Source of the DNA: Chryseolinea serpens
GTDB taxonomy: Bacteria > Bacteroidota > Bacteroidia > Cytophagales > Cyclobacteriaceae
Reading direction: 5' to 3'
DNA length: 64,000 nucleotides
Assembly (NCBI RefSeq): GCF_900129725.1
Contig: NZ_FQWQ01000001.1
Coordinates: 372,001 to 436,000, forward strand
Positions 3,487-48,380 of this stretch are shown here, piece after piece (the stretch's first letter is position 1; every line of letters starts with the position of its first letter). Position numbers and translations under genes: made by a program. The notes under the pieces were generated by a model. It was not told the DNA's origin, searched no databases, and saw only the letters and a list, made by a program, of their open reading frames with translations.

Positions 3487-4104
3487 CCATCATAACACCG
3501 GGTGCCAACCCGGTGTATGCGAACCCACCATCCGTCTGCGCCACGTGCTCACGAAAATAGAAGCATGCCATGTTCATGGCGCACACCGCGCTGCGCACGG
3601 ATGCAACGTGCCTTTGCGCGCCAAACCGTGCGAGGCTCGATCAGACTTTCCCATGGCGCTTTTGCCTTTTTTTCATCCGTTCCCCGGGTTAAAACCCGGG
3701 GTTATGATGGGAAAACTCCTACGGAGTTTGGAGAGGGCCAATTTGTTCAAAGACTTGGCGAGTTAAGCAACCGGGAGAGTAGTGCTAGTTATACCGCAAG
3801 AATCATAACACCGGGTGCCAACCCGGCGTATGCGAACCCGCGATCCGCCTGCGCCACGTGCTCACGAGAATAGAACTATGCCACGTTCATGGCGCACACC
3901 GCGCTGCGCACGGATGCAACGTGCCTTTGCGCGCCAAACCGTGCGAGGCTCGATCAGACTTTCCTATGGCGCTTTTGCTTTTTTTTCGTCCGTTCCCCGG
4001 GTTAAAACCCGGGGTTATGATGGGAAACTCCTACGGAGTTTGAGAAGTCCAGTTTATTCAAAGACTGGCCAGTTAGGAATTTGGAGAGCGGTGTTAATTA
4101 TGCT
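3487..4104. repeat. tandem pair of a 0.3-kb element with inverted-repeat ends
   Basis: Two direct copies, 3489-3801 and 3802-4104, lie head to tail. The first about 240 bases of each are nearly identical and the last about 60 more diverged. Each core begins with CATAACACCGGGTGCCAACC and ends with an imperfect reverse complement (CCCCGGGTTAAAACCCGGGG then TTATGATGG), giving ends of about 29 bp; both ends are themselves hairpins. A second small palindrome (AACTCC-GTA-GGAGTT, 3470-3484, and its counterpart at 3713-3729, with another at about 4025-4041) flanks the cores. The open frames inside follow the repeat and look non-coding. This fits a non-autonomous REP/MITE-like element; no transposase is present in the window. 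Confidence 0.8.
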
Positions 4105-4141
4105 GGAAGAAAACGCGGCAGTGAGGTTATCTATTTACGCA

Positions 4142-4726
4142 TCAACCTTCTGCACGGTAAGAGTGCACAATGGTTCCGCCGGGAAAAGTCTCTACATCCG
4201 CCAACTTCAGGTAAAGCGGGCTGGCAAGGCCGGCGAAGATGGGCAACCCCGAGCCTAATGCGACAGGGTGGATAGCCAGGTTGAATTCATCGATAAGACC
4301 CGTGGCGATGAGGCTCTGTATAAATCTCGCTCCGCCAAGGGCGACGATCGGCTTCCCCGGCTCGGCCTTGAGTTTCCTGATCTCCTCGGCAAGATCGCCG
4401 TCGAAAATCCGCGCATCGGACCAGGAGGCTGCAGCCGGTGACTGCTCCGAACTATGCGGGATCCCCGCAAATCCGTTTTTGGTAAAGACAGCTTTGGGGA
4501 TCGTGTTCATCGGCGCGGCAAAAGGCCCGGTCGCCGTCGGCCAGTAGGGCGACATGATCTCGAACGACGTCCTGCCCATGATCAGCAGGCTTGCCTCTCG
4601 GATTTGATCCACGCTCCAGTCCCGTGACTGCTCGTCGCCGGTCTTAAAGATCCAATCGTTTTTCCCATTGACGTCACTTACAAAACCGTCGAGCGACATC
4701 GACATTTTTACGATCAATTTTCGCAT
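4142..4726 (-). CDS. dihydrofolate reductase family protein (RibD C-terminal type)
   Basis: A 194-residue cytoplasmic protein of the RibD_C/DHFR-like fold. Supporting motifs are the N-terminal strand RKLIVKMSMSLDGFVS, the cofactor-binding segment LLIMGRTSFEIM and the C-terminal GKPIVALGGARFIQSLI followed by FNLAIHPVALGSGLPIF. The family binds NADPH and reduces pterin- or pyrimidine-like substrates; members of this length in Bacteroidota are usually stand-alone enzymes of unknown substrate, not part of riboflavin synthesis. It has no operon partner here: the tandem repeat lies downstream and an intergenic region lies upstream. Confidence 0.9.
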   Translation of the reverse strand: MRKLIVKMSMSLDGFVSDVNGKNDWIFKTGDEQSRDWSVDQIREASLLIMGRTSFEIMSPYWPTATGPFAAPMNTIPKAVFTKNGFAGIPHSSEQSPAAASWSDARIFDGDLAEEIRKLKAEPGKPIVALGGARFIQSLIATGLIDEFNLAIHPVALGSGLPIFAGLASPLYLKLADVETFPGGTIVHSYRAEG

Positions 4727-6944: not shown

Positions 6945-8269
6945 TTAGCTGGCTTCTTCGATCTTTACTTTGATCTTTTTTAACCTTTCATTTTTAATGC
7001 CGGTCAATGCCTGTTTCAGATGCGTGCGCCGGATGGCTGCAAACGAAGCGTGATCGAGCGTGGTGATCAATCCAATCTGATCGGCATTCAGACCGCCCTT
7101 CTTCATGAGCAGCCCTGCGATATCGCCCTTGCTGATCTTATCCTTTTTACCGGCGCTGATGTAAAGGCAGACAAATTCCGGTGGGGGAGGTAGCGCGAAT
7201 TTTGGGTTGATTTTAACCTCGGTGATATTGTCGTCCATGTAGGGCGGAAGCATCTCATCATCGGCGAGGACAAAATACGCCTGCCCTTCGGCGTGCATGC
7301 GTGCGGTGCGGCCGTTGCGATGAACGAATGCGTCACGTTGGAGGGGCAATTGATAATGGACAATGTGTTTGATCTCCGGAATGTCGAGGCCGCGGCTGGC
7401 GAGGTCGGTGGCGATGAGAACATGGTGTGCCCCAGCGCGAAACTTGATGAGGTTTTTCTCACGGTCTATCTGCTCCAGGGCGCCATGCAGGATGCCATGC
7501 GCAAAGTTATGATCATTGAAAAGCGCGCTGATGCGATCAACAGCTTCACGATGATTGCAAAACACGAGGCACGCTTCCTGATGGAAACCCGCGACAAGGC
7601 GCATGAGCGTTTCCACTTTCTCTGTGCTTAGGGTGTGAACGCTCTTGAGTGTTAGCCGGGTCGGTGCGGTGTCGTTGAGATAGCTGATGCGTTCGGGCTG
7701 CGAGAAGGGAATAAACGACGGTAGTACATCCAGCGTCGTGGCCGACGTGAGCAAATGATTTTGTTTGCCGGTGAGCGACTTGAAAACGACCGCAAGCTGA
7801 GGTTCGAACCCCATTTCCAAAGACTTGTCGAATTCGTCGAGCACCACCCAGCGAATCGTCCGGGTGTCGAAAGTCTTGCGTGAAATGTGATCGGCCAGGC
7901 GCCCTGGGGTACCGATGATCACCGCCGGAGCGGTGGCAAGGCTGTTTTCTTCGATTTCATGGCGTGGCCGCCATAGAAGCAACAAACCTTATAATTTGTC
8001 CTGAGGCTGCGAAACACCTGCTCGATTTGGAGCGCCAATTCCCGCGAAGGCACGATGATGAGCGCCTGCACCTCATCCTTTCCGGGTCTCAGGGCCTCGA
8101 TGACCGGCAACAGGAAAGCGAGGGTCTTGCCCGACCCCGTGGGCGCGAGTAACATCAAATTCGGGTTAATTGCCGTCTTCGCGATGGTCTCTTTCTGCAT
8201 CGGGTTGAGGGTGTCGATGCCTATATTTTTCAAGTAGTCAGCCTGGGTGGCCTTACGGGTGGTTTGCAT
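6945..8269 (-). pseudogene. dbpA: DbpA-type DEAD-box RNA helicase, interrupted by a frameshift
   Basis: Two overlapping minus-strand frames together encode one helicase. The N-terminal part (8269 down to about 7957) has the Q-motif region, Walker A PTGSGKT and PSRELALQ, and reads as far as FYGGHAMK. The rest (from about 7955 to 6945) continues in another frame with IEENSLATAPAVIIGTPGRLADH, motif II DEFD (where the family usually has DEAD), SATTL, ATDLASRGLDIPE and HRNGRTAR. A C-terminal DbpA RNA-binding domain follows (about the last 75 residues). One missing base in the T run at 7955-7957 restores a continuous protein of about 440 residues. DbpA helicases act on 23S rRNA during large-subunit assembly. 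The lesion is either a real inactivating mutation or a homopolymer sequencing error. Confidence 0.85.
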
Positions 8270-13043: not shown

Positions 13044-13143
13044 TTTGAGAGAACTTTTTTTGAAAGTATTAAGAGAAGCCAACAAACAACTTTATAAACG
13101 TAGAAGTCGGATGCATGCATTGCTCCGTAATCAGTAAATAACC

Positions 13144-13617
13144 ATGAAAACGCCTTTAATTACACCGGAAGGTTTAGAAAAGTTGAAAGCGGAGTTGGAT
13201 CATTTGTGGCGCGTTGAACGGCCCGACACCACGCAAAAGGTTTCCTGGGCGGCAAGCCTGGGTGATCGTTCTGAAAATGCAGATTATCACTACAACAAAA
13301 AGCGCCTGCGCGAAATTGACCGGCGAGTGCTCTATCTGCGCAAATGTATCGATGATCTGAAGGTTGTGAATTATTCACCCTTCCAGGAGGGCAAAGTCAT
13401 GTTTGGTGCCTGGGTGGAAATTGCAAATGACAAAGGCGAACAAAAACGTTTCCGTATCGTCGGGTATGACGAAATTTTTGACACCAAAGATTACATCTCC
13501 ATAGACTCACCCATGGCCATTTCACTGATGAAAAAAGAAGTGGGTGACGAAGCCGTCGTGAAAACCGGGGCGGGCGAATTTGTCTGGCGTATTACCAAAA
13601 TTGAGTACCAGAAATAA
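13144..13617 (+). CDS. greB: transcription elongation factor GreB
   Basis: A 157-residue GreA/GreB family factor that enters the RNA polymerase secondary channel and stimulates cleavage of backtracked RNA. The N-terminal coiled coil carries the acidic tip GDRSENADYHYNKKRLREIDRR, and the C-terminal domain has VEIANDKGEQKRFRIVGYDE and DSPMAISLMKKEVGDEAVV, both characteristic of the family. The WRVERPDTTQKVSWAASLGDRSENADY stretch favours GreB over GreA. Single gene. Confidence 0.95.
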   Translation: MKTPLITPEGLEKLKAELDHLWRVERPDTTQKVSWAASLGDRSENADYHYNKKRLREIDRRVLYLRKCIDDLKVVNYSPFQEGKVMFGAWVEIANDKGEQKRFRIVGYDEIFDTKDYISIDSPMAISLMKKEVGDEAVVKTGAGEFVWRITKIEYQK

Positions 13618-20698: not shown

Positions 20699-20734
20699 AA
20701 CTGATTTTGTGATTTAAAATTCTACTGCAAACAT

Positions 20735-20769
20735 AATAAATATTTATTGATAAACAATAAATATTTATT
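20735..20769. promoter_or_regulatory. twin palindromic operators of the DUF2975/Xre operon
   Basis: Two copies of the perfect 14-bp palindrome AATAAATATTTATT lie at 20735-20748 and 20756-20769, 21 bases apart centre to centre, which is two helical turns. They sit 37-71 bases upstream of the DUF2975 ATG, where the promoter should be. The spacing would place two regulator dimers on the same face of the DNA. The adjacent Xre protein is the natural candidate to bind them. Confidence 0.7.
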
Positions 20770-21174
20770 ATATATAAGAAAGTTAGAAAAGTGCAGCTCT
20801 GCTTTAACGTCTCTAACCTTCTCGCGTAATTAAGAGCGTTTTCATAGTTATTCCGTTAAGGAGATATGGGAGGAGGATCGCGCCCAAACAAAATTGGAAG
20901 TTGGGGCGCTTTTGGATACTATAATCTGATTTGAACGCTACTTACGGAAACTCTAGGCTTTAAAGCATGCTGCGCTGGGATTAGGTTGGCGACAATTGTC
21001 AATGATCTGGACGATGGTAGGTATCCTCCCGAGCTTTTGATTTCAAGTATACAGGTCACAGGGACGGAACGGCGCCATTTCTGAAGAATGTGCTAGCAAG
21101 GTTCGACATATTTAGCGAGCTCCCTGCACCTTCGATTTTTACTAATTTCATCATGTTATCAAGCGTATCGCAAT
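20770..21174. other. intergenic region with one hairpin
   Basis: 405 bases between the DUF2975/Xre operon promoter and the 3' end of the CHAT operon. A hairpin (arms 20880-20889 and 20900-20909, one mismatch, then TTTT) could be a weak plus-strand terminator. A 22-codon frame at 20866-20934 is preceded by AAGGAG, but has no other support. Nothing else is recognisable; the block may be eroded DNA at the border of the accessory region. Confidence 0.4.
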
Positions 21175-22353
21175 TTATGAAATTTCATTATTTGGGCCGA
21201 ACTCCCTAAACACTCTTTTGGCTTTGCCTAAACGGTCGGCATACATTGTTAACTTGGGTTCCATATCTTCATCCACAGGAATACCCAAAAATTGTAGATC
21301 ATTTTGCGTGTCGATTTGCCAGGTTGTCGTAACCATTGGTTTAAGCCCGCTTCGAACGGTTGGGCTCTCTTTATTGATGATTTCCAAACATTCTCTGTAT
21401 GCCTGGCGATAGATAAGGTCGATTTCTTCATCTAGGAAATTGGGATCTGCTTTGAGCAATGCGCTAATGTCCCTCAGCTTCGGCAGACAACTCTTTTCCC
21501 AAAACTCTTTTCGGGGATTTTTCTCTTTTTCTACGAAGGGATCCTCCGAATAATCCTGCACAAGCTGCTTCACTTCGCGTAGTTTCCTTCGCCACTCACT
21601 TTGACCGGATATGCGGTCCCGTATGGCTTTCACACAGCCCACTTTAAGGATTACATACGACAGCTGAGTGACCACCTCTCCATTGTTCTTTAATATACCT
21701 CCGTCGCCAATTTCCAATTTTAATCCATCGGTGGGTATTGGATTTTTTGACGAATGCGAGCCAAGGATAACATAGTACCCAGATTTTATACCGTCAAGCG
21801 CCAGGTTAAAGTCACCGCTGAATTGTAAGATTGGTTTTCGCTCCTCAGCCGGTAAAAACGAAGCTAAGATCTTTTCACTCAAACCGCTCAAGGTCTTCGC
21901 CACCATTGCGCTACCAGGAGCAAATGAAATTGTAGAAAGCAATGATTTGTCGGCAATCAAGCCGGCCAGATCACGAAGATAGTTTCGAGCGTTGACCAGG
22001 TATTCTATCGAAACAGACAATTTTTTCATTTTGGCGGGAATGAAATCAACAAGCATGGGACTAAAACCAAGCTGAACCGCATTGTCTTTTTCGATTTCCC
22101 GTGTCTGAATAATTGAACGAACATCCTGGTTTGATAGGTCATTTGAAGCATCCAGGTGTAAATTTACTTGCGAGACAATGGATAATGTTCGCGCTCCAAT
22201 CCACCACGGGCCACTAAACGCAGCTTGCGCACTGTAGACCTGAACCGAAAGGTAACCCTGATCGGTATGCGTAATTTCAGGTTCGGAGGATGAAGCAATA
22301 AAATAAGGGGCGGAATTTGTTCCGATGGAGGGATAGAGGGGTGTTTCTTTCAT
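21175..22353 (-). CDS. unknown partner protein of the CHAT protease
   Basis: 392 residues, no signal peptide and no clear membrane segment. I recognise no family. The first 170 residues look beta-rich, including QGYLSVQVYSAQAAFSGPWWIGARTLSIVSQVNL. A middle part (about 180-260) has a glycine-rich sequence (SGYYVILGSHSSKNPIPTDG then LKLEIGDGGILKNNGEVV), and the last 130 residues are helical and highly charged. It starts 30 bases after the CHAT gene stop and is surely on the same transcript. By analogy with protease/target pairs it could be the substrate, an effector or a regulator of the protease; this is inference only. GC content is low, as in its partner. Confidence 0.8.
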   Translation of the reverse strand: MKETPLYPSIGTNSAPYFIASSSEPEITHTDQGYLSVQVYSAQAAFSGPWWIGARTLSIVSQVNLHLDASNDLSNQDVRSIIQTREIEKDNAVQLGFSPMLVDFIPAKMKKLSVSIEYLVNARNYLRDLAGLIADKSLLSTISFAPGSAMVAKTLSGLSEKILASFLPAEERKPILQFSGDFNLALDGIKSGYYVILGSHSSKNPIPTDGLKLEIGDGGILKNNGEVVTQLSYVILKVGCVKAIRDRISGQSEWRRKLREVKQLVQDYSEDPFVEKEKNPRKEFWEKSCLPKLRDISALLKADPNFLDEEIDLIYRQAYRECLEIINKESPTVRSGLKPMVTTTWQIDTQNDLQFLGIPVDEDMEPKLTMYADRLGKAKRVFREFGPNNEIS

Positions 22354-22383
22354 AGTTATTTGTGAAATCAGTAAGCTCCTATT

Positions 22384-25300
22384 TTACGATCCTAAAAAGA
22401 TAAAGCCTGCCCAGTAAAATGGATGTGAGAACGGTCGCTCCATTTGATCTTCCTTGAGGATGTATTCCTTTCGTTTTTGGTCGAGTAACCCTGCAGCTTC
22501 TTCCGTAGCAGGCACTTTATCCTTTAACTCATCAAAGAATTCTGCCAGCACTTCGTTGGTTGCATCACGCAGCCATAGCTGCGATAATTGAAGAGCTTTT
22601 GAAGGTTCATGATTTTCTGTCTTCCATAAGGAGTAGAACTTGATGAAGATAATGGAAGTGCTCAAATCGGAAACACTCCAAAGAGAGGCGACAACTCCAG
22701 CCGCACCGATACTGATAAAGCCGGTGGCCAAGCTAAATGCTTCGTCGGGAAGCTTGAAGCCGACCACGCCGGTCTCGCAAGCCGAAACGACCACTAATCG
22801 CACCTTCCACAGATTTAAAGCTGAGAGCTTGGAAAGTGTTAGTACGCGATCGTTTGCCAGAACTAAACCACTTTCCGACGGTTCCGAAATATTAGTGAAC
22901 GCGTGGCAGCAAAAATGGAGTACAGCGTTGTTTTGAATACACTCAGCAACGTCCTCCACCTGAGCTCCCTGACCCTTTAAATGTTCTGGCTTCGTATAAA
23001 CACTCTTGGCCACGAAAGTTTCAAGCGATGCATATGGAAGGAAAGGTGCACTACTCGGCTCTGGATTTTCAACGATCATTAAGGAGTCTTCTTTTGAAAC
23101 GAATTTTCGCGCGAGCGAGACTTTCAATGATTTTGCACTCGGCGCAAATCGCCAGTCCAGCAAATCCGTCGCATATGTCCTGCCTTTTTCCGCTTCAGAC
23201 CAACCTGCATGAAGTGGGATGTAAGCCAGCAGATCGCTGGGTATTACAACTAGCTTTTGATAATTTTTTACCAATGGTAATATCGCTCCGATAAGACTTT
23301 CCCAGACCCAGCGGGTTAATTCCTCCAGCTGTTGGAGCCATGTCCGAAAAAACTGCTTACCGGTATTTTTTTGCCATGCCTGGTAGGCATTAAGATAGTC
23401 GTTCACTTTTGCATCAATCACGTGTGATTTTAGATCAGGCAGAAATATTTTTGTTATGAGCAGATGCTGATCCTGTGGAACAATCAGGGCGAACCCCCCA
23501 TGTTCGCTGATAATTGTATAAAGCAACGGAGTATCATGAGCTATACCATAAATATCGTGTATTGTCAAGTCTGAAAAGAAGCTTTCCAGGCCCGGTTGCG
23601 ATCGAATGGTATCGATAATTTGATGAAGATTTCGCCGTGCCGCCTCAATTCGTGCAGTTATGTGGCTGTTGCCCGTTTCCCGATTGCCTAAACCAATCAA
23701 CTGTGTTAGGCTTTCGGAAGCTAGGCGATACTTTTCGGCAAGAGAAACATGGCCTTTTTCAAGTAATGTATACACATTTGAATAATGCAAGTCCAGGGAT
23801 TGCTTAAGAATTCTCGCTTTCCATTTTTCAGCGATAACAACAGCATCGTTTTCCCGACCGATCATGCACATCGCGTATGCAGCCATTTTGTGAATACGAT
23901 AGCTTTGCTGTAGAGCAGATTCCTGGTCGTTCATCGTAACCTGCATGGCATATATCGTGTCAAGTGCGTAAAGCGCTTTATCCAGTACGTTGACACATGC
24001 TTCCCACTCGTTAAGCAAAAAGAACGTATTGCCAAGATTGTAACAGATTTGAATAGCGTCGTGCGACTGCTCGAGAGGATTGACCTCCATCATCGCTTGG
24101 TGGGAAGCTTTGATGGATTTCTCCAGATCGATGACGGCTCTCGATCGCATATATTTGCATTGATAGGCTATCGCCAGATTCGCCCAGCAAGTGCAGGTGT
24201 TTACTCTTGACAAATTGGCTTTGTTGAGGATAGATTGGTATAGGGATATGGCTTCGTTTAAGTCAGCTTCCGAATCGGTGGCATCGTAGCGAAGGGTCAG
24301 CGACTTGGCCAAATTTTCCTGGTACATCGCGAAATAGTGTGTTCGGCTATTCACGTATGTTGTAGCTTCTCTTCCTGATAGAACTGCCTGATTCAGGTTC
24401 TCAATATTTCCCGTCAACTGGAATGCATCCCGGTATGCATTGTTTAAATTGTTATGTGTGAGAAAGTATGAGCTTGAGCTGCTATCGGTATACGCTAGTG
24501 CTTCACAGTATTGTGCGATCGATTTGTCAAGGATGGAGGGATCGCTTAATAACGAGGCCTGGTGCCGGAATGTCCTGCCAAGCCCGATAGCAATATTAGT
24601 TAAATCATTCTTAGAGAGACCGTCGTTCTTCTTCATACTTGTGAAGCATTCCTGCGCTGAATTTAAATCACTTACACGTCGTTGTACTTCGAATCGTTCC
24701 AGGTAAGAAATGGCGAGATTGTTTAGCGTCTGAGCAAAGCTAAGGGAATCTTCAGACTTCTGATTTAAGGCCTGTTTGTATATAGCAATAGCACGATCGA
24801 CGTCGCTGATCCTTTTCAGGAACTCACCGCGCCTGAAAAGCAAGCTTCCCAGGTTGTTCAGTATTTTTGGATAATGAGGTACGTCGACAGGAAGCTTTCG
24901 CAATGCATCTTCTAGGATGTTAATTGCATTGTTCAGGTCGGCTATATCCGATGTCACTTCGAAGTGGTATATGCACGCAGTAGAAATGTTGACTATCGTA
25001 AGTACGTGGTCCCACGATCCATTGACAACATTCCGGAGCGATTGAAGGAGCAGTTGGATGCCCTTGTCCCAATCCTCGCCAATGTGCCGTATTTTATATT
25101 TGGATATCAGGCCGATAGCGATGTGAATGTCGACGTTTTCGTGAAATTTTTGGTCATGGCCCGGACGGTTGCGCAAGCTTTCAAAAGTCTGAATGGATTT
25201 GTTGATTGTATTGACATCGTCTGTTTGAACACCGTAATCAAGTAATTCTAAAGCGTTAGTAAGCAGCGTGTTGGCGTCCTTCAAAGTTCTCCCGGAATCG

Positions 25301-26484
25301 TCGTCGGAAACAATGGCATCGAGCCCATGCTCTTGTAGCTGACGAATTAACCAAATGTGCCAATCAAATTCTTGAATAGCTCCCTCATCCTGCTGGATGG
25401 CTTTCGTGTAAGCAAGGAGAGGAAGCGTGGCATGATCACGCAGCAATTCGGGGAATTTTCTGATTACTTCTTTTTTCTCTTCTAGTGTAGTAACGGAGAA
25501 GAGCTCCATTAACTTAGGTTGAATATGCCTAATGCCGTAGGCAACCAGCTCAAGTTCCATTGGAGGTATCGACATAGCTTCTGAAAATACTGCGACCGGT
25601 GAAGATTCGGAGCATTTTCGTAATAAGGTTAGGTTTTCATGATATACATTTCTCCTCTCTTCATCGCTCTCCGAGTTGTATAGGACCTCAAGCCATGTCG
25701 AGACAACAATACTTAACAGATCCGGGTTATCTCTGAGGTACAGAAATGCATCAATCCAGGAATTCTTTTCGATAAATTCAAAGATCATTTCCTGGATTTG
25801 AGTGGCATCCTTATCAGTGTCGTTTTCCAGGAAGATCAAGCTTTTTTTTCCGTCCTTGGAAATACTCAACGTTATCTGCCGTGTTGACTTTGGTGACACC
25901 GTTCTTGTTGCCGGTATTGATCGGTTATTTTTCTTTAACTCGTCTTTGGCGAAATTTTTCAACGCTAGGGTAGCATCATTGTCGGGTGAAAATTCAATGA
26001 ATTTTTCGAAAGCGTACAGGCTTTTTTCTCGTTCCCCTTGCTCATAATACAGCATTCCCAGGTTAGACCACGAGTTCCATGCTTTTTCGTTTAGGCGAAC
26101 GGCCTCGAGAAAATTCTCCAATGCTTCTTGTTTTCGATTTGCAACCAAAAGCTGAGCACCACGATATTCATAGTATGAGCAAGAGTCGGCCTCGGTATTC
26201 CCTCCGTTGATTCCCTGATCATCATTATCGGATGATCTAAAGACTGCAACTTTTCCGTCTCTTGTCACTACACTGATTGAGAGGATCTCCTCGAAATCTA
26301 ATGCTGTTTGACTATGCCGATTGATCAAAAAAACTTGAGGATAACCACTTCCGAGCTCCAGTACATTTGGATATCCATCTAGTCTCCTTCCGTTTTTAAA
26401 CGTTATGGTAGAACTTGTCAATGAAGACTTTAATCCGCAATTAAGAGCGTATAAAGCAAATTCGGCAGCAGTTGACTCGTTCAT
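22384..26484 (-). CDS. TPR-repeat CHAT domain caspase-like protease
   Basis: 1366 residues. Residues 1-85 form a small beta-rich N-terminal domain. A first TPR group (YYEYRGAQLLVANRKQEALENFLEAV, SWSNLGMLYYEQGEREKSLYAFEKFI) spans about 95-170, a helical spacer follows, and a long TPR array runs from about 400 to 900, with motifs such as ILNNLGSLLFRRGEF and TLNNLAISYLERFE. The C-terminal CHAT domain (about 1050-1366) keeps the catalytic His (HFCCHAF, His1194) and Cys (SACETG, Cys1236), so it should be an active cysteine protease of the caspase/separase clan. TPR-CHAT proteins occur in defence and programmed-cell-death modules, where the TPR arm binds a trigger. It leads a two-gene operon with an unknown protein. 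Confidence 0.93.
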   Translation of the reverse strand: MNESTAAEFALYALNCGLKSSLTSSTITFKNGRRLDGYPNVLELGSGYPQVFLINRHSQTALDFEEILSISVVTRDGKVAVFRSSDNDDQGINGGNTEADSCSYYEYRGAQLLVANRKQEALENFLEAVRLNEKAWNSWSNLGMLYYEQGEREKSLYAFEKFIEFSPDNDATLALKNFAKDELKKNNRSIPATRTVSPKSTRQITLSISKDGKKSLIFLENDTDKDATQIQEMIFEFIEKNSWIDAFLYLRDNPDLLSIVVSTWLEVLYNSESDEERRNVYHENLTLLRKCSESSPVAVFSEAMSIPPMELELVAYGIRHIQPKLMELFSVTTLEEKKEVIRKFPELLRDHATLPLLAYTKAIQQDEGAIQEFDWHIWLIRQLQEHGLDAIVSDDDSGRTLKDANTLLTNALELLDYGVQTDDVNTINKSIQTFESLRNRPGHDQKFHENVDIHIAIGLISKYKIRHIGEDWDKGIQLLLQSLRNVVNGSWDHVLTIVNISTACIYHFEVTSDIADLNNAINILEDALRKLPVDVPHYPKILNNLGSLLFRRGEFLKRISDVDRAIAIYKQALNQKSEDSLSFAQTLNNLAISYLERFEVQRRVSDLNSAQECFTSMKKNDGLSKNDLTNIAIGLGRTFRHQASLLSDPSILDKSIAQYCEALAYTDSSSSSYFLTHNNLNNAYRDAFQLTGNIENLNQAVLSGREATTYVNSRTHYFAMYQENLAKSLTLRYDATDSEADLNEAISLYQSILNKANLSRVNTCTCWANLAIAYQCKYMRSRAVIDLEKSIKASHQAMMEVNPLEQSHDAIQICYNLGNTFFLLNEWEACVNVLDKALYALDTIYAMQVTMNDQESALQQSYRIHKMAAYAMCMIGRENDAVVIAEKWKARILKQSLDLHYSNVYTLLEKGHVSLAEKYRLASESLTQLIGLGNRETGNSHITARIEAARRNLHQIIDTIRSQPGLESFFSDLTIHDIYGIAHDTPLLYTIISEHGGFALIVPQDQHLLITKIFLPDLKSHVIDAKVNDYLNAYQAWQKNTGKQFFRTWLQQLEELTRWVWESLIGAILPLVKNYQKLVVIPSDLLAYIPLHAGWSEAEKGRTYATDLLDWRFAPSAKSLKVSLARKFVSKEDSLMIVENPEPSSAPFLPYASLETFVAKSVYTKPEHLKGQGAQVEDVAECIQNNAVLHFCCHAFTNISEPSESGLVLANDRVLTLSKLSALNLWKVRLVVVSACETGVVGFKLPDEAFSLATGFISIGAAGVVASLWSVSDLSTSIIFIKFYSLWKTENHEPSKALQLSQLWLRDATNEVLAEFFDELKDKVPATEEAAGLLDQKRKEYILKEDQMERPFSHPFYWAGFIFLGS

Positions 26485-27166
26485 ATCCTTTAGACCTAGC
26501 CCTAGAAATTTGGACCTGACAGTAGAACCATTTTAACGCCATTTGCGCACGACCGGCACGGTAGGAGGTCTTCAAGCAGATGGGCTTATCGATAATAGCG
26601 AAACCCATTTGCCTTTGCAAAAGGAGAAATGAGCTACTTACTAATCCAATATAGGAAGCTTCAGAAGCATTTTTTATCGTTTAATCCAAATTTTGTGTCA
26701 CGATGCCAACCACCTGCCTCCTTAGCGTCCTCAAACTTATTCTTCTCCTCCTAAAAAGACTCAACACTAAACCTTCCACCGTTTTGGTGTTTGATTCGCT
26801 GATGCTCGCTTAGAAATTTCGCTGCGTTATGAATAACGGAGTAACAGGAGTAGCAAATGCACCTAAGAATGACAGTCGAAAGGTGCCTAAATAAGCCGGC
26901 AACGCTTTTTTGGTATTTCAGAATATTCAAGATACGATGGCATGTAAATACCTGATAATCAATTTGTTATTATGAATATTTTTAATACAGAATTATGGGT
27001 TGACGGTGGTTTCACCAACTGCGCATTAAATAATTGTTTCAAAAGTATAAGTTTCGTTCAAGTCCCGTTTTCTTCCGGAGGCAGGGACTTTTTTTTGCTT
27101 TGCTCTTCCCATTGAGATCCCTCATTATTGCTTCGAAATAAACCGATTGAAACGCTGGAGAATTAT
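26485..27166. other. long intergenic region, no gene seen
   Basis: 682 bases upstream of the CHAT operon and downstream of the YdeI-like gene, of low GC. It must hold the CHAT promoter. The only clear structure is a strong plus-strand terminator hairpin near its right end, although no plus-strand gene lies to its left. Short frames exist (for example 21 codons at about 26828) but none is convincing. No tRNA could be built from the sequence. Confidence 0.5.
27060..27096 (+). terminator. orphan rho-independent terminator
   Basis: AAGTCCC (27060-27066) pairs with GGGACTT (27084-27090) and is followed by an uninterrupted run of T up to 27096. This is a well-formed plus-strand terminator, but the nearest upstream genes are read on the other strand, so it may end an unannotated small RNA. 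Confidence 0.6.
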
Positions 27167-27745: not shown

Positions 27746-27824
27746 TGCGTGAGAAGGCATAAGCCCCGGCAACGCCAAGTAACGAAATATCGTTAACTTA
27801 TGCCAACTGTTGATTTCTTTGATC

Positions 27825-28670
27825 ATGACTATTCCTGTGCTATCCCGGTTTCTTTTTCCTTCGATTACACTCAACAGGAGCAAAGCTTCAAATAAATTGG
27901 ATGGGAAAACCATTCTTATCACAGGTGCAACTTTTGGCATAGGCGAAGCCTTGGTGAGGCATTTGTTCCAGTATAATGTGCAATTGATCCTTGTCGCCCG
28001 TACAAAAGAGAAATTGTCCGAACTCGAAAATGAATCGCGAGAGTTTGCGGCCAAAGTGACCACGATAAGTTGTGACTTCTATAGCGAGGAAAGTGTGACT
28101 GCGTTATGCAACCAGGTGAAGTCCATTCCTATCGACTATTTTGTATCAAATGCGGGCAAGAGCATCATGCGGTCGTTCGAGGCATCCGCAGGCCGGTTCC
28201 ATGATTATAAAAGGACGATCGCGGTAAATTATCTCGCCCCCGTACAGTTGATATCTGCATTGACGGAAAGCTTTGGCGCTGCTCAAACTCACATCGTCAA
28301 CGTCGGCACCTACAACGTATTAATGAAAGCCGCGCCGAAATGGAGTGCCTACGTTGCGTCCAAGAAAGCAATGCACAGCTGGATTGAAAGCAACGTGCCG
28401 GAAATGGCAATGATGAACATCACGGTGAGCAACATCTATTTGCCGTTGGTGGAGAGCAGAATGAAGGATGCCAACGAGAATTACAAAGACACCCCTGCCA
28501 TGTCGATGAATACAGCGGTTGGCATCATTGTAAAGGGACTTTTAAACCGGAAATATCACTTTAAACCCTGGTGGCATGTTCCCTTTCAAATCATCTTGTT
28601 TTTGGCGAGCCCTTTTTGGAATGTTGTTTGGAAGAGACGGATCGGTCAAGAAAACCGAACTTTATGTTAG
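27825..28670 (+). CDS. SDR family NAD(P)-dependent oxidoreductase
   Basis: 281 residues from the ATG at 27825 (a TTG at 27810 is an alternative). A classical Rossmann-fold short-chain dehydrogenase: cofactor loop TGATFGIGEALV, the VSNAGKS motif and the active-site YVASK (Tyr-x-x-x-Lys), with the catalytic Ser position less clear (VGTYNVLM). The C-terminal 40 residues (KYHFKPWWHVPFQIILFLASP) are hydrophobic and could attach the enzyme to the membrane, suggesting a lipid-like substrate. The stop codon overlaps the start of the acyl-AMP ligase gene by 7 bases, so the two are translationally coupled. Confidence 0.9.
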   Translation: MTIPVLSRFLFPSITLNRSKASNKLDGKTILITGATFGIGEALVRHLFQYNVQLILVARTKEKLSELENESREFAAKVTTISCDFYSEESVTALCNQVKSIPIDYFVSNAGKSIMRSFEASAGRFHDYKRTIAVNYLAPVQLISALTESFGAAQTHIVNVGTYNVLMKAAPKWSAYVASKKAMHSWIESNVPEMAMMNITVSNIYLPLVESRMKDANENYKDTPAMSMNTAVGIIVKGLLNRKYHFKPWWHVPFQIILFLASPFWNVVWKRRIGQENRTLC

Positions 28671-46200: not shown

Positions 46201-47280
46201 CTAGGAATCACTTGAGGTATTTATAATCTTTTCCCGGATTAATTGGGTTGAAGGGGGAAAGCCGGTATCCCTGAATGTAATTCGAGCTAAAAGTGAGGCT
46301 GCGTCGAGATGATTATATTTCTTTCCTTTAGCCGTGGCCATCGATGCAAATAAGGCTACAAGTCCTGTGGTGTAAGCGCATGCGTGGGAGGTGCCTTGAG
46401 GGTCGACATGGGGAAAAAGATCTTTAAGAGCCTCGATAGGATATTCGCCCGGCGCAGTTACATTCACAGCCGGCCAGTAATTGGATGACAAGAGACGTTC
46501 GTAATTTCCGTTAACTTTTATCAGTCCATCCGCTGCAATAACTCCGGCGACGGTAGCGGGTATAATTTCGAAGTGAGGATTTCTGAAGGAATTGTTTCCT
46601 GCGGCAGCACAGAGCACGACATTTTCGTGTGATAAAATCCGTTTAATGGAGGCAACGGCGTCCAATTCAAACTGCTGGCCCAAGCCAAACGAAACAAGAC
46701 TGCAATTGATAACAAATTGTTTGTTGTTGTCCGCGTCTAAGATTTTTTCCGTTTCGTTCAGACCTTCTAAAAAATCCTGGCCTCGAATACCTCCATCATT
46801 TGTTATTTTTATGGAAATCAATTCGACCCCTGGGGCGACGCCGTGAATTGACCGTCCGCTGCCAAGAATGATGGAACTCATCAACGTTCCGTGTCCAAAA
46901 GTATCGGTGCCATCGTCTCCAATGACGGAGCGCTTGGTCATAGTCTTGCCAAAAAGATCCGGTGAATCTTCCCTGATTCCAGAATCCAACAGTATCACGG
47001 TAACCCCTTCGCCCTTGGAATGTGGCCAGACCAGGTCTATACCATAGTCTCCAATCCACCATTGATTGCCGGTGGTTTCGGATCTGCTGGTAGCTCCGCT
47101 CCAATAGTAGTTGCCGGCAGCATCCTTGAGCCAGGTAGTGACGCCCTCAAATTTGTCGCCCTGGTGTAGTTGCTCTTCAACCTCCAGTTCGCTCCCCGGT
47201 GCCAGATATTGATAAGTCGGTGCATTTACGCTGGGCTTACCTACCCTGACATTCAAATAGTCTTTTACGGTTACCTTCAT
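46201..47280 (-). CDS. SH3-domain subtilisin-like serine protease (S8), cytoplasmic
   Basis: 359 residues without a signal peptide or propeptide. Residues about 1-62 form a small SH3-like domain (KVTVKDYLNVRVGKPSVNAP to DAAGNYYWSG). The S8 catalytic triad is complete: Asp99 (VILLDSGI), His130 (DTFGHGTLM) and Ser298 (GTSHACAYTTG), with the oxyanion Asn229 (AAAGNN). The absence of a signal peptide is unusual, since most subtilases are secreted. It starts on the stop codon of the membrane protein gene (TGATG), so translation is coupled. Together with the neighbouring membrane and secreted proteins it may form a stress- or phage-responsive proteolytic unit (inference). Confidence 0.9.
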   Translation of the reverse strand: MKVTVKDYLNVRVGKPSVNAPTYQYLAPGSELEVEEQLHQGDKFEGVTTWLKDAAGNYYWSGATSRSETTGNQWWIGDYGIDLVWPHSKGEGVTVILLDSGIREDSPDLFGKTMTKRSVIGDDGTDTFGHGTLMSSIILGSGRSIHGVAPGVELISIKITNDGGIRGQDFLEGLNETEKILDADNNKQFVINCSLVSFGLGQQFELDAVASIKRILSHENVVLCAAAGNNSFRNPHFEIIPATVAGVIAADGLIKVNGNYERLLSSNYWPAVNVTAPGEYPIEALKDLFPHVDPQGTSHACAYTTGLVALFASMATAKGKKYNHLDAASLLARITFRDTGFPPSTQLIREKIINTSSDS

Positions 47281-48380
47281 CAGCCTTTGGGGTTAATCTG
47301 TTTTTTGTCATCTGCCTTCTTTTTGGCGCCGGTGTCTTCCGCGGGTGCAGGCGCAATGGAGGTGCGCAATTTCATGAGCTTATTCAGTAGGTCGAACCAA
47401 AAAGGTGCGCCAAGGGAAATGGCAAGAGCCGTGATACACCAACCCAGCACTGACAGAAGGAAATAACCCACCCTACAAAGGAAGTCGTCGCCTCTCCATT
47501 CGTAATTCTGAATCCCCATGCCGAGCAGCGAATTCAGCTCGTTGGCTTCCGCTATGAGTAGTTCCTGCTGCTCTTTAAGAGCTTTGTTGGCGTCTGTAGC
47601 GGCTTTCTCCAGCGAAGCCTTTTCCTTTAATTTTGTTGAATCTGTCTTTATCAGCTTGTCGATTTCGTTTTGCTGCTCTTCGAGTTCACGTTTAAGATCG
47701 GGATGAGCTTTCAGGAAATTGGCTGCCTGCTGAACCACTTGTGCCGTGAGCGTTGGATTGCTGGAGAGCTTGCTGACAATGACGATGGTGTCGACATTGA
47801 AAATAACCGCCAGCAAAAGGCCGACCGCCATTAACAGTATCTGTGTTTTCTTTTTATACCATCCGGACAGGCGCTCCATGGTATCGTCAAACCATTGTTC
47901 AAGACCGAGCTTGAATTTTTCAATGTCTCCTTGTGAAGTCGCCCAAAGGGATCTTAAATATTGGAACGTTTCTCCGTCCGACAACTTCTTCGTGTCATCC
48001 AGGCTCTCTCCTTTAAGTGCGATGTCGCCGTTTAATGTTGAATTGATTTTGGATCTGAAATCCTCGCCTGGTTTCGGAGATTCACCCCGAAGGATGTCGA
48101 TGACCACTTCGCTGAAATTTTTTGAACTCAGGTAAGAAGGGAATTTGTCCGCTTGTTCCTGCAGGTATTTTATTAAGGGCGCCTTAAAGAATTGCTTGCT
48201 CAACAGCGCGGTGCCGGTGTCGTCGTCGAGCATCCGCGTCAAAGCCTTTTTAAGCATGCCAGCCCGGAGGCGGATAATTTGGGCAGCCAAGATTTCTTGT
48301 AATATGGTTGCCAGCAGGCTATACAGCAGGTAGATGAAAACCAAGCTGATCACGATATCTAATGCAACTGATCCTGTCAT
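47280..48380 (-). CDS. inner-membrane protein with coiled coil, first gene of the subtilase operon
   Basis: 366 residues. One hydrophobic helix lies at the N-terminus (VALDIVISLVFIYLLYSLLA), a second near residue 190-212 (ILLMAVGLLLAVIFNV) and a third near 305-330 (VGYFLLSVLGWCITALAISL). Between the second and third is a long coiled coil (about 225-290, rich in Lys, Glu and Gln). The C-terminus contains GAPFWFDLLNKLMKLRTS, a motif I have seen in conserved membrane proteins of unknown function, then a Lys/Asp-rich tail. The periplasmic or cytoplasmic side of the coiled coil is not certain. It begins the three-gene unit with the protease and secreted protein. Confidence 0.8.
   Translation of the reverse strand: MTGSVALDIVISLVFIYLLYSLLATILQEILAAQIIRLRAGMLKKALTRMLDDDTGTALLSKQFFKAPLIKYLQEQADKFPSYLSSKNFSEVVIDILRGESPKPGEDFRSKINSTLNGDIALKGESLDDTKKLSDGETFQYLRSLWATSQGDIEKFKLGLEQWFDDTMERLSGWYKKKTQILLMAVGLLLAVIFNVDTIVIVSKLSSNPTLTAQVVQQAANFLKAHPDLKRELEEQQNEIDKLIKTDSTKLKEKASLEKAATDANKALKEQQELLIAEANELNSLLGMGIQNYEWRGDDFLCRVGYFLLSVLGWCITALAISLGAPFWFDLLNKLMKLRTSIAPAPAEDTGAKKKADDKKQINPKG

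Follow-up and report, generated by a model that had tools for sequence, protein, structure and literature searches.

A TPR-CHAT caspase-like protease and a closely linked 392-residue protein of no known family in a strain-variable block of Chryseolinea serpens

The stretch of Chryseolinea serpens DNA analysed here (64,000 nucleotides in total, hereafter the window) carries a tightly linked pair of genes on its minus strand. The first gene (22384-26484) encodes a TPR-CHAT caspase-like protease of 1366 aa, and the second (21175-22353), downstream of it, encodes a 392-aa partner of no known family. An earlier description made from the letters alone (the sequence-only reading) had reported these two open reading frames as a minus-strand pair separated by 30 bases, and their coordinates, strand and lengths were borne out. 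The spacing is exact, with 30 bases (22354-22383) between the protease stop codon and the partner ATG, and the gap holds no terminator-like site. One match to TTG-N22-TAAGTTTG, which we take to be a Bacteroidota-type promoter motif, was found at 26732-26764 on the minus strand, 247 nt upstream of the protease ATG, compared to 0.03 expected in base-shuffled sequence. This is a consensus match only, and the whole window contains 12 such matches on its two strands. No match to the motif was found in the 447 nt before the partner. The operon layout proposed in the sequence-only reading, a tight same-strand pair, agrees with one promoter match before the protease and none before the partner, suggesting that the two genes are co-transcribed. 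By our own arithmetic, an open frame of 392 codons at 44% GC has a chance of ~1e-10 per start point. In codon usage, the coding frame of neither gene stood apart from its antisense frames; the test is therefore without power and speaks neither for nor against the partner as a gene. No description of this protease-partner pair was found in the open-licence literature searched.

The protease starts with a stretch of no known family (aa 1-110), followed by a first TPR that matches Pfam TPR families (aa ~113-170), a middle stretch that is again of no known family (aa ~180-480), and a second TPR array, for which Pfam matches cover aa 516-597 and repeats can be followed by eye over aa ~480-840. The CHAT domain occupies aa 1055-1366 and matches PF12770 over this range with 149.3 bits, compared to a cut-off of 24. 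Its dyad is intact. The residues given in the sequence-only reading, His1194 and Cys1236, are correctly numbered and align with the dyad proven for Craspase; in its solved TPR-CHAT structure, a hand count on chain 7x8a_D puts this dyad at H585 and C627. These are the residues named as the Craspase protease dyad in the available text of PMC9729208. Because the two pairs align, the CHAT domain of the window should be catalytically competent, as predicted from its sequence. No signal-peptide-like stretch is seen by eye at the start of the protease.

Five other CHAT proteins of the host genome exceed the Pfam cut-off. Their N-termini look signal-peptide-like by eye, unlike that of the window protease, and they score only ~20-56 bits against it. 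Higher scores were obtained with distant proteins from Rhodococcus (WP_269592059.1; 224 bits, 23.0% identity, protease aa 470-1285 aligned), Herpetosiphon (ABX07761.1; 182 bits, 22.7% identity, aa 420-1366) and Pseudanabaena (WP_126390700.1; 146 bits, 26.4% identity, aa 520-1365). Therefore, the protease is no recent local paralogue. It appears to group with cytoplasmic-looking TPR-CHAT proteins of Actinomycetota, Chloroflexota and Cyanobacteriota, the likeness consisting of TPR and CHAT regions aligned together. When aa 540-1366 were searched against 390 genomes of the order, the own genome alone gave a match at E up to 1e-20; two best candidates were scored per genome, so that other CHAT relatives are possible. 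To judge from sequence searches, the N-terminal part is nearly as isolated as the partner. Its first 520 aa have no relative among the plasmids searched and match 7 of 305 family genomes at E up to 1e-5, own genome included. The six non-own matches are confined to aa 73-203, around the TPR (three inspected). With aa 180-520 as the query, 3 of 395 genomes gave matches at E up to 0.01, and the two non-own matches were rejected as relatives, being helicase-like and FAD-oxidase-like by eye.

The partner had been described as belonging to no known family, and profile and structure searches upheld this, with no accepted match in any library searched. Nothing exceeded the cut-offs of Pfam or NCBIfam, no PADLOC or PHROGs model matched, and the PDB gave no chain at E up to 10. 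Plasmid and phage records yielded no match. Likewise, no GTDB or IMG/VR contig was found by an exact-peptide scan, which needs exact peptide matches, possibly omits very near records and can detect close relatives only. In tblastn searches of three overlapping sets that include the own genome (98 relatives, 395 genomes from the phylum and 390 from the family), the own genome alone gave a credible match. Neither the partner nor protease aa 1-520 was found in five congeners. Hydropathy shows no membrane span in the partner, the best mean over 19 residues being 1.26. An AlphaFold2 model made from the single sequence without homologues had a mean pLDDT of 35 and was unusable, including for recognising a gasdermin fold.

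At E up to 0.1, weak tblastn matches to the partner appeared in 21 of the 395 genomes; at E up to 0.01 they appeared in 3 of the 390 (E 9.3e-4 and 0.0026). Both counts include the own genome. Inspection covered seven loci. The candidates rejected were a carbon-nitrogen hydrolase (L009), the antisense of a Rho-like gene (L010, by eye), a peptide synthetase (L014, by eye), two ThyX thymidylate synthases (L011 and L016), an M28 peptidase (L015) and a WD-repeat protein (L031, by eye). A further match, L032, is interrupted by 8 stops. In a small database the preselected loci attain E values of 0.0006-0.009, which follows from their preselection. Five further matches from the 395-genome search touch partner aa ~282-377 and lie in ORFs of 305-320 aa, which are probably also ThyX. 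A weak resemblance of this region to the C-terminal part of ThyX thus recurs in several Bacteroidota genomes. We take the resemblance as chance, since ThyX proteins match a family of their own over the full length, whereas the partner matches no family. The sole Pfam hint for the partner was to the T6SS sheath protein VipA/TssB (PF05591; 14 bits compared to a cut-off of 24, E 0.044). In control searches, another protein outscored the partner across the whole host genome (16.4 versus 15.0 bits), and the same search also gave matches in 4 of the 14 control genomes, one of them with a score above the cut-off. The VipA/TssB reading was dropped because it did not withstand this control.

Both genes lie in a strain-variable block of 6383 bases (6.4 kb; 20777-27159), delimited by comparison with the closest of the five congeners, as judged by flanking genes. 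This congener matches the window up to 20776 and again from 27160, in pieces of mostly 84-93% DNA identity, and lacks the block. Between the same two flanking genes it instead carries ~56 kb of other genes (L044-L047, ~14006-70351 of a joined 80 kb), SusC/SusD-like genes among them by eye. We therefore consider the locus strain-variable. An empty site was not seen, the fragment of another congener ending too early to tell, and no convincing direct repeats flank the block. The sequence-only reading had called the block an acquired module, of lower GC than its surroundings and flanked by long gene-poor stretches. Its absence from the closest congener bears out a variable block, whichever of the two states is the older; the GC and gene-poor arguments lend acquisition no support. 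The GC contents of the protease and partner genes (0.443 and 0.444) are indeed below the window mean of 0.477, but the flanking genes for a DUF2975 protein (0.444) and OmdA (0.420), which the congener shares at ~91-93% DNA identity where aligned, are as AT-rich or more so. GC therefore does not mark the block and is no sign of acquisition. The gaps, described as long, are only 476 and 682 bp. A perfect 17-base inverted repeat (20733-20771) lies just upstream of the DUF2975 gene; it is largely kept in the congener and may be an operator.

The intergenic DNA of the block contains scraps of other genes. At 20794-20852, 61 aligned bases are 80% identical to the reverse of 13137-13197, the start of a GreA-like gene by eye, and the 43 bases at 20959-21001 share 81% identity with the 3' end of a luciferase-like gene of the congener. 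Because of these scraps, we regard the block as a rearranged stretch. This would fit an accident of neighbourhood, in which a TPR-CHAT gene gained by horizontal transfer shares one block with an orphan gene unrelated to it and the two have no joint function, as would the finding that the pair co-occurs in no other genome searched. However, the two genes share a strand and a similar GC content, the short gap between them lacks a terminator-like site, and the partner has no promoter match of its own, so we consider such an accident unlikely.

The sequence-only reading had also placed the pair in a defence context. This was not upheld, as a PADLOC scan of the window names no specific system and detected no other specific defence genes close to the pair. 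The window is tiled by 54 ORFs of at least 110 aa, of which the scan took in 52, all but an overlapping pair at 3502-4255; the SDR gene at 27810-28670 lies outside this tiling. The omitted ORFs (plus strand) share a repeated DNA stretch, their translations opening with ~50 unusual and almost identical residues. Among the 52 ORFs, 21 models were matched, mostly of helicase type and each in one or two ORFs. The PADLOC output carries no ORF names, and the helicase models probably all reflect one DEAD-box-like gene at 6948-8269. By eye, this minus-strand helicase is spread over two overlapping ORFs in different frames, and the gene is possibly broken. PADLOC also matches a subtilase ~20 kb away. 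It belongs to a second two-gene protease pair (46204-48380, minus strand), in which a 366-aa protein, whose N-terminal stretch looks membrane-like by eye, is encoded immediately before the subtilase (PF00082, 72 bits; PADLOC subtilase model, E 2.8e-13). Fungal gasdermin clusters contain either subtilase or CHAT proteases, according to the available text of PMC10989679. For the ~56 kb of the congener, the scan was applied to the 24 ORFs contained entirely in the fetched pieces; its sole match was a candidate M43-type peptidase model, in two ORFs.

CHAT proteins of the HetF type have a regulatory or developmental role in cyanobacteria. The pair could similarly serve regulation or development and act on a non-lethal target, a reading with which the lack of a specific defence system nearby is compatible. 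Furthermore, the genes that fill the site in the congener, SusC/SusD-like and others, are metabolic-looking by eye from their N-termini. An accessory pair that was not found in five congeners would nevertheless be an unusual place for a developmental regulator, and we regard this role as very improbable.

We also looked at TPR-CHAT loci on plasmids, where 115 records match the protease; 12 loci were read, from an incomplete plasmid gene table. Within 50 bp downstream, 4 of the 12 have an annotated gene on the same strand that is not another CHAT, encoding 116 aa in Herpetosiphon, 128 aa in Tolypothrix, 170 aa in Streptomyces and 337 aa in Methylobacterium. The other 8 have no annotated same-strand gene besides another CHAT within 50 bp downstream. 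Upstream, an annotated same-strand gene other than CHAT lies within 50 bp in 3 of the 12 loci, one of which also has a follower. With close followers in 4 of 12 loci, the arrangement of CHAT plus a variable neighbour recurs; such neighbours are common, not universal, and different from locus to locus. No similarity to the partner was detected in 12 nearby plasmid proteins, nor was the partner found in 4 plasmids searched whole. The unknown proteins directly downstream of TPR-CHAT in Methylobacterium (L057:6206-7219), Tolypothrix (L056:6183-6569) and Herpetosiphon (L017:9037-9387) differ from one another. Two related proteins of ~470-480 aa with C-terminal membrane-like spans (L019:3787-5232 and L056:6738-8150; 22% identity, E 1.4e-14) are encoded close to TPR-CHAT genes of cyanobacteria, upstream in one case and downstream in the other. 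They possibly form a recurrent CHAT-linked family.

To our knowledge, few targets of bacterial CHAT proteases have been found. For the pair described here we favour, tentatively, a two-gene cytoplasmic proteolytic switch, in which the N-terminal and TPR part would sense a trigger and CHAT would cleave the partner. We consider this plausible, though short of probable. The N-terminal part and TPR arrays would keep CHAT inactive until the trigger is bound, and the freed His1194/Cys1236 dyad would then cut the co-transcribed 392-aa protein. Cleavage could release an active or de-repressed fragment of the partner, with a putative role in growth arrest or death induced by infection or stress. We favour a trigger-gated protease acting on its neighbour because the Csx29-Csx30 and fungal precedents share the anatomy of the pair, a layout known elsewhere from immunity and cell suicide, and because a promoter match lies upstream while the gap is free of terminator-like sites. 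The 30-base gap, the location of both genes in one variable block and their similar GC contents also count for the switch, as do the difference of the protease from the other CHAT proteins of the host and the close followers in 4 of 12 plasmid loci. Against it count the restriction of the pair to one genome among those searched, the 8 plasmid loci that have no such follower, the failure of the scan to find a specific defence system nearby, and a partner with no known cleavage motif, fold or toxicity. The sequence-only reading had looked to conservation of the pair in other genomes, and none was found in the collections searched. The linkage is therefore a single case, and for the same reason we can only infer cleavage of the partner.

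The chief rival is that the partner acts as an inhibitor, chaperone or co-sensor, as securin does for separase, and that the substrate is encoded elsewhere. TPR-CHAT resembles separase, which securin holds inactive, according to the available text of PMC9729208. A protein that lacks membrane spans and is encoded so close to the protease would suit such a role. However, the partner matches no known inhibitor family, and its sequence gives no preference for inhibitor over substrate; we view this alternative as possible but doubtful. On a bolder reading, the partner would found a new family of effectors or switch proteins activated by CHAT, of which it is the first seen, and the N-terminal part would be a new trigger sensor, together making a compact two-gene suicide or immunity device unrelated to CRISPR and gasdermins. 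This stronger proposal seems to us rather unlikely. Compact, and with a partner that has no membrane spans, the pair offers a convenient system for asking if CHAT proteases target the product of the adjacent gene and if neighbour targeting generalises beyond Csx30 and gasdermins.

The pair can also be compared with known systems. CATRA systems, said to go back to Burroughs and Aravind (2020), reportedly consist of a caspase-superfamily protease with associated proteins. CATRA-C (PF20270) was found in 0 of 1 genome (the host, E up to 10), and CATRA families were absent from the Pfam scan of the protease and partner. These caspase-dependent conflict systems are mentioned in the available text of PMC8195603. 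In the case of Craspase, the window protease shares with Csx29 a TPR arm and a CHAT domain with an aligned His/Cys dyad (phmmer E 1.5e-13 over the CHAT domain). Csx30 is encoded in the same locus as Csx29. According to the available text of PMC10028731, activation reaches the catalytic site of Csx29 through its TPR region, and Csx30 is the protein cut. The window protease is, however, about twice as long as Csx29, and it scores 55 bits against the Csx29 family NCBIfam NF041237 (aa 994-1303), compared to a cut-off of 300 bits. PADLOC, with a library assumed to hold Cas7-11 and Csx30 models, names no Cas7-11 of type III-E among the 52 window ORFs of at least 110 aa and gives no match for the partner. 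By sequence the partner is not recognised as a gasdermin, as it matched no Pfam gasdermin (E up to 1) or PDB chain (E up to 10), in libraries that presumably contain gasdermins. At 392 aa it is also longer than the RCD-1 gasdermins (244 and 257 aa in the available text of PMC12881547). In fungi, TPR-CHAT genes adjoin those of gasdermins, and the protease of one P. anserina pair activates the gasdermin encoded beside it (available text of PMC12881547 and PMC10989679). By these sequence measures the pair thus falls within neither Csx29-Csx30 nor CHAT-gasdermin, and what it has in common with the fungal clusters, as far as those are described in the available text, is two adjacent genes for a TPR-CHAT protease and a smaller protein.
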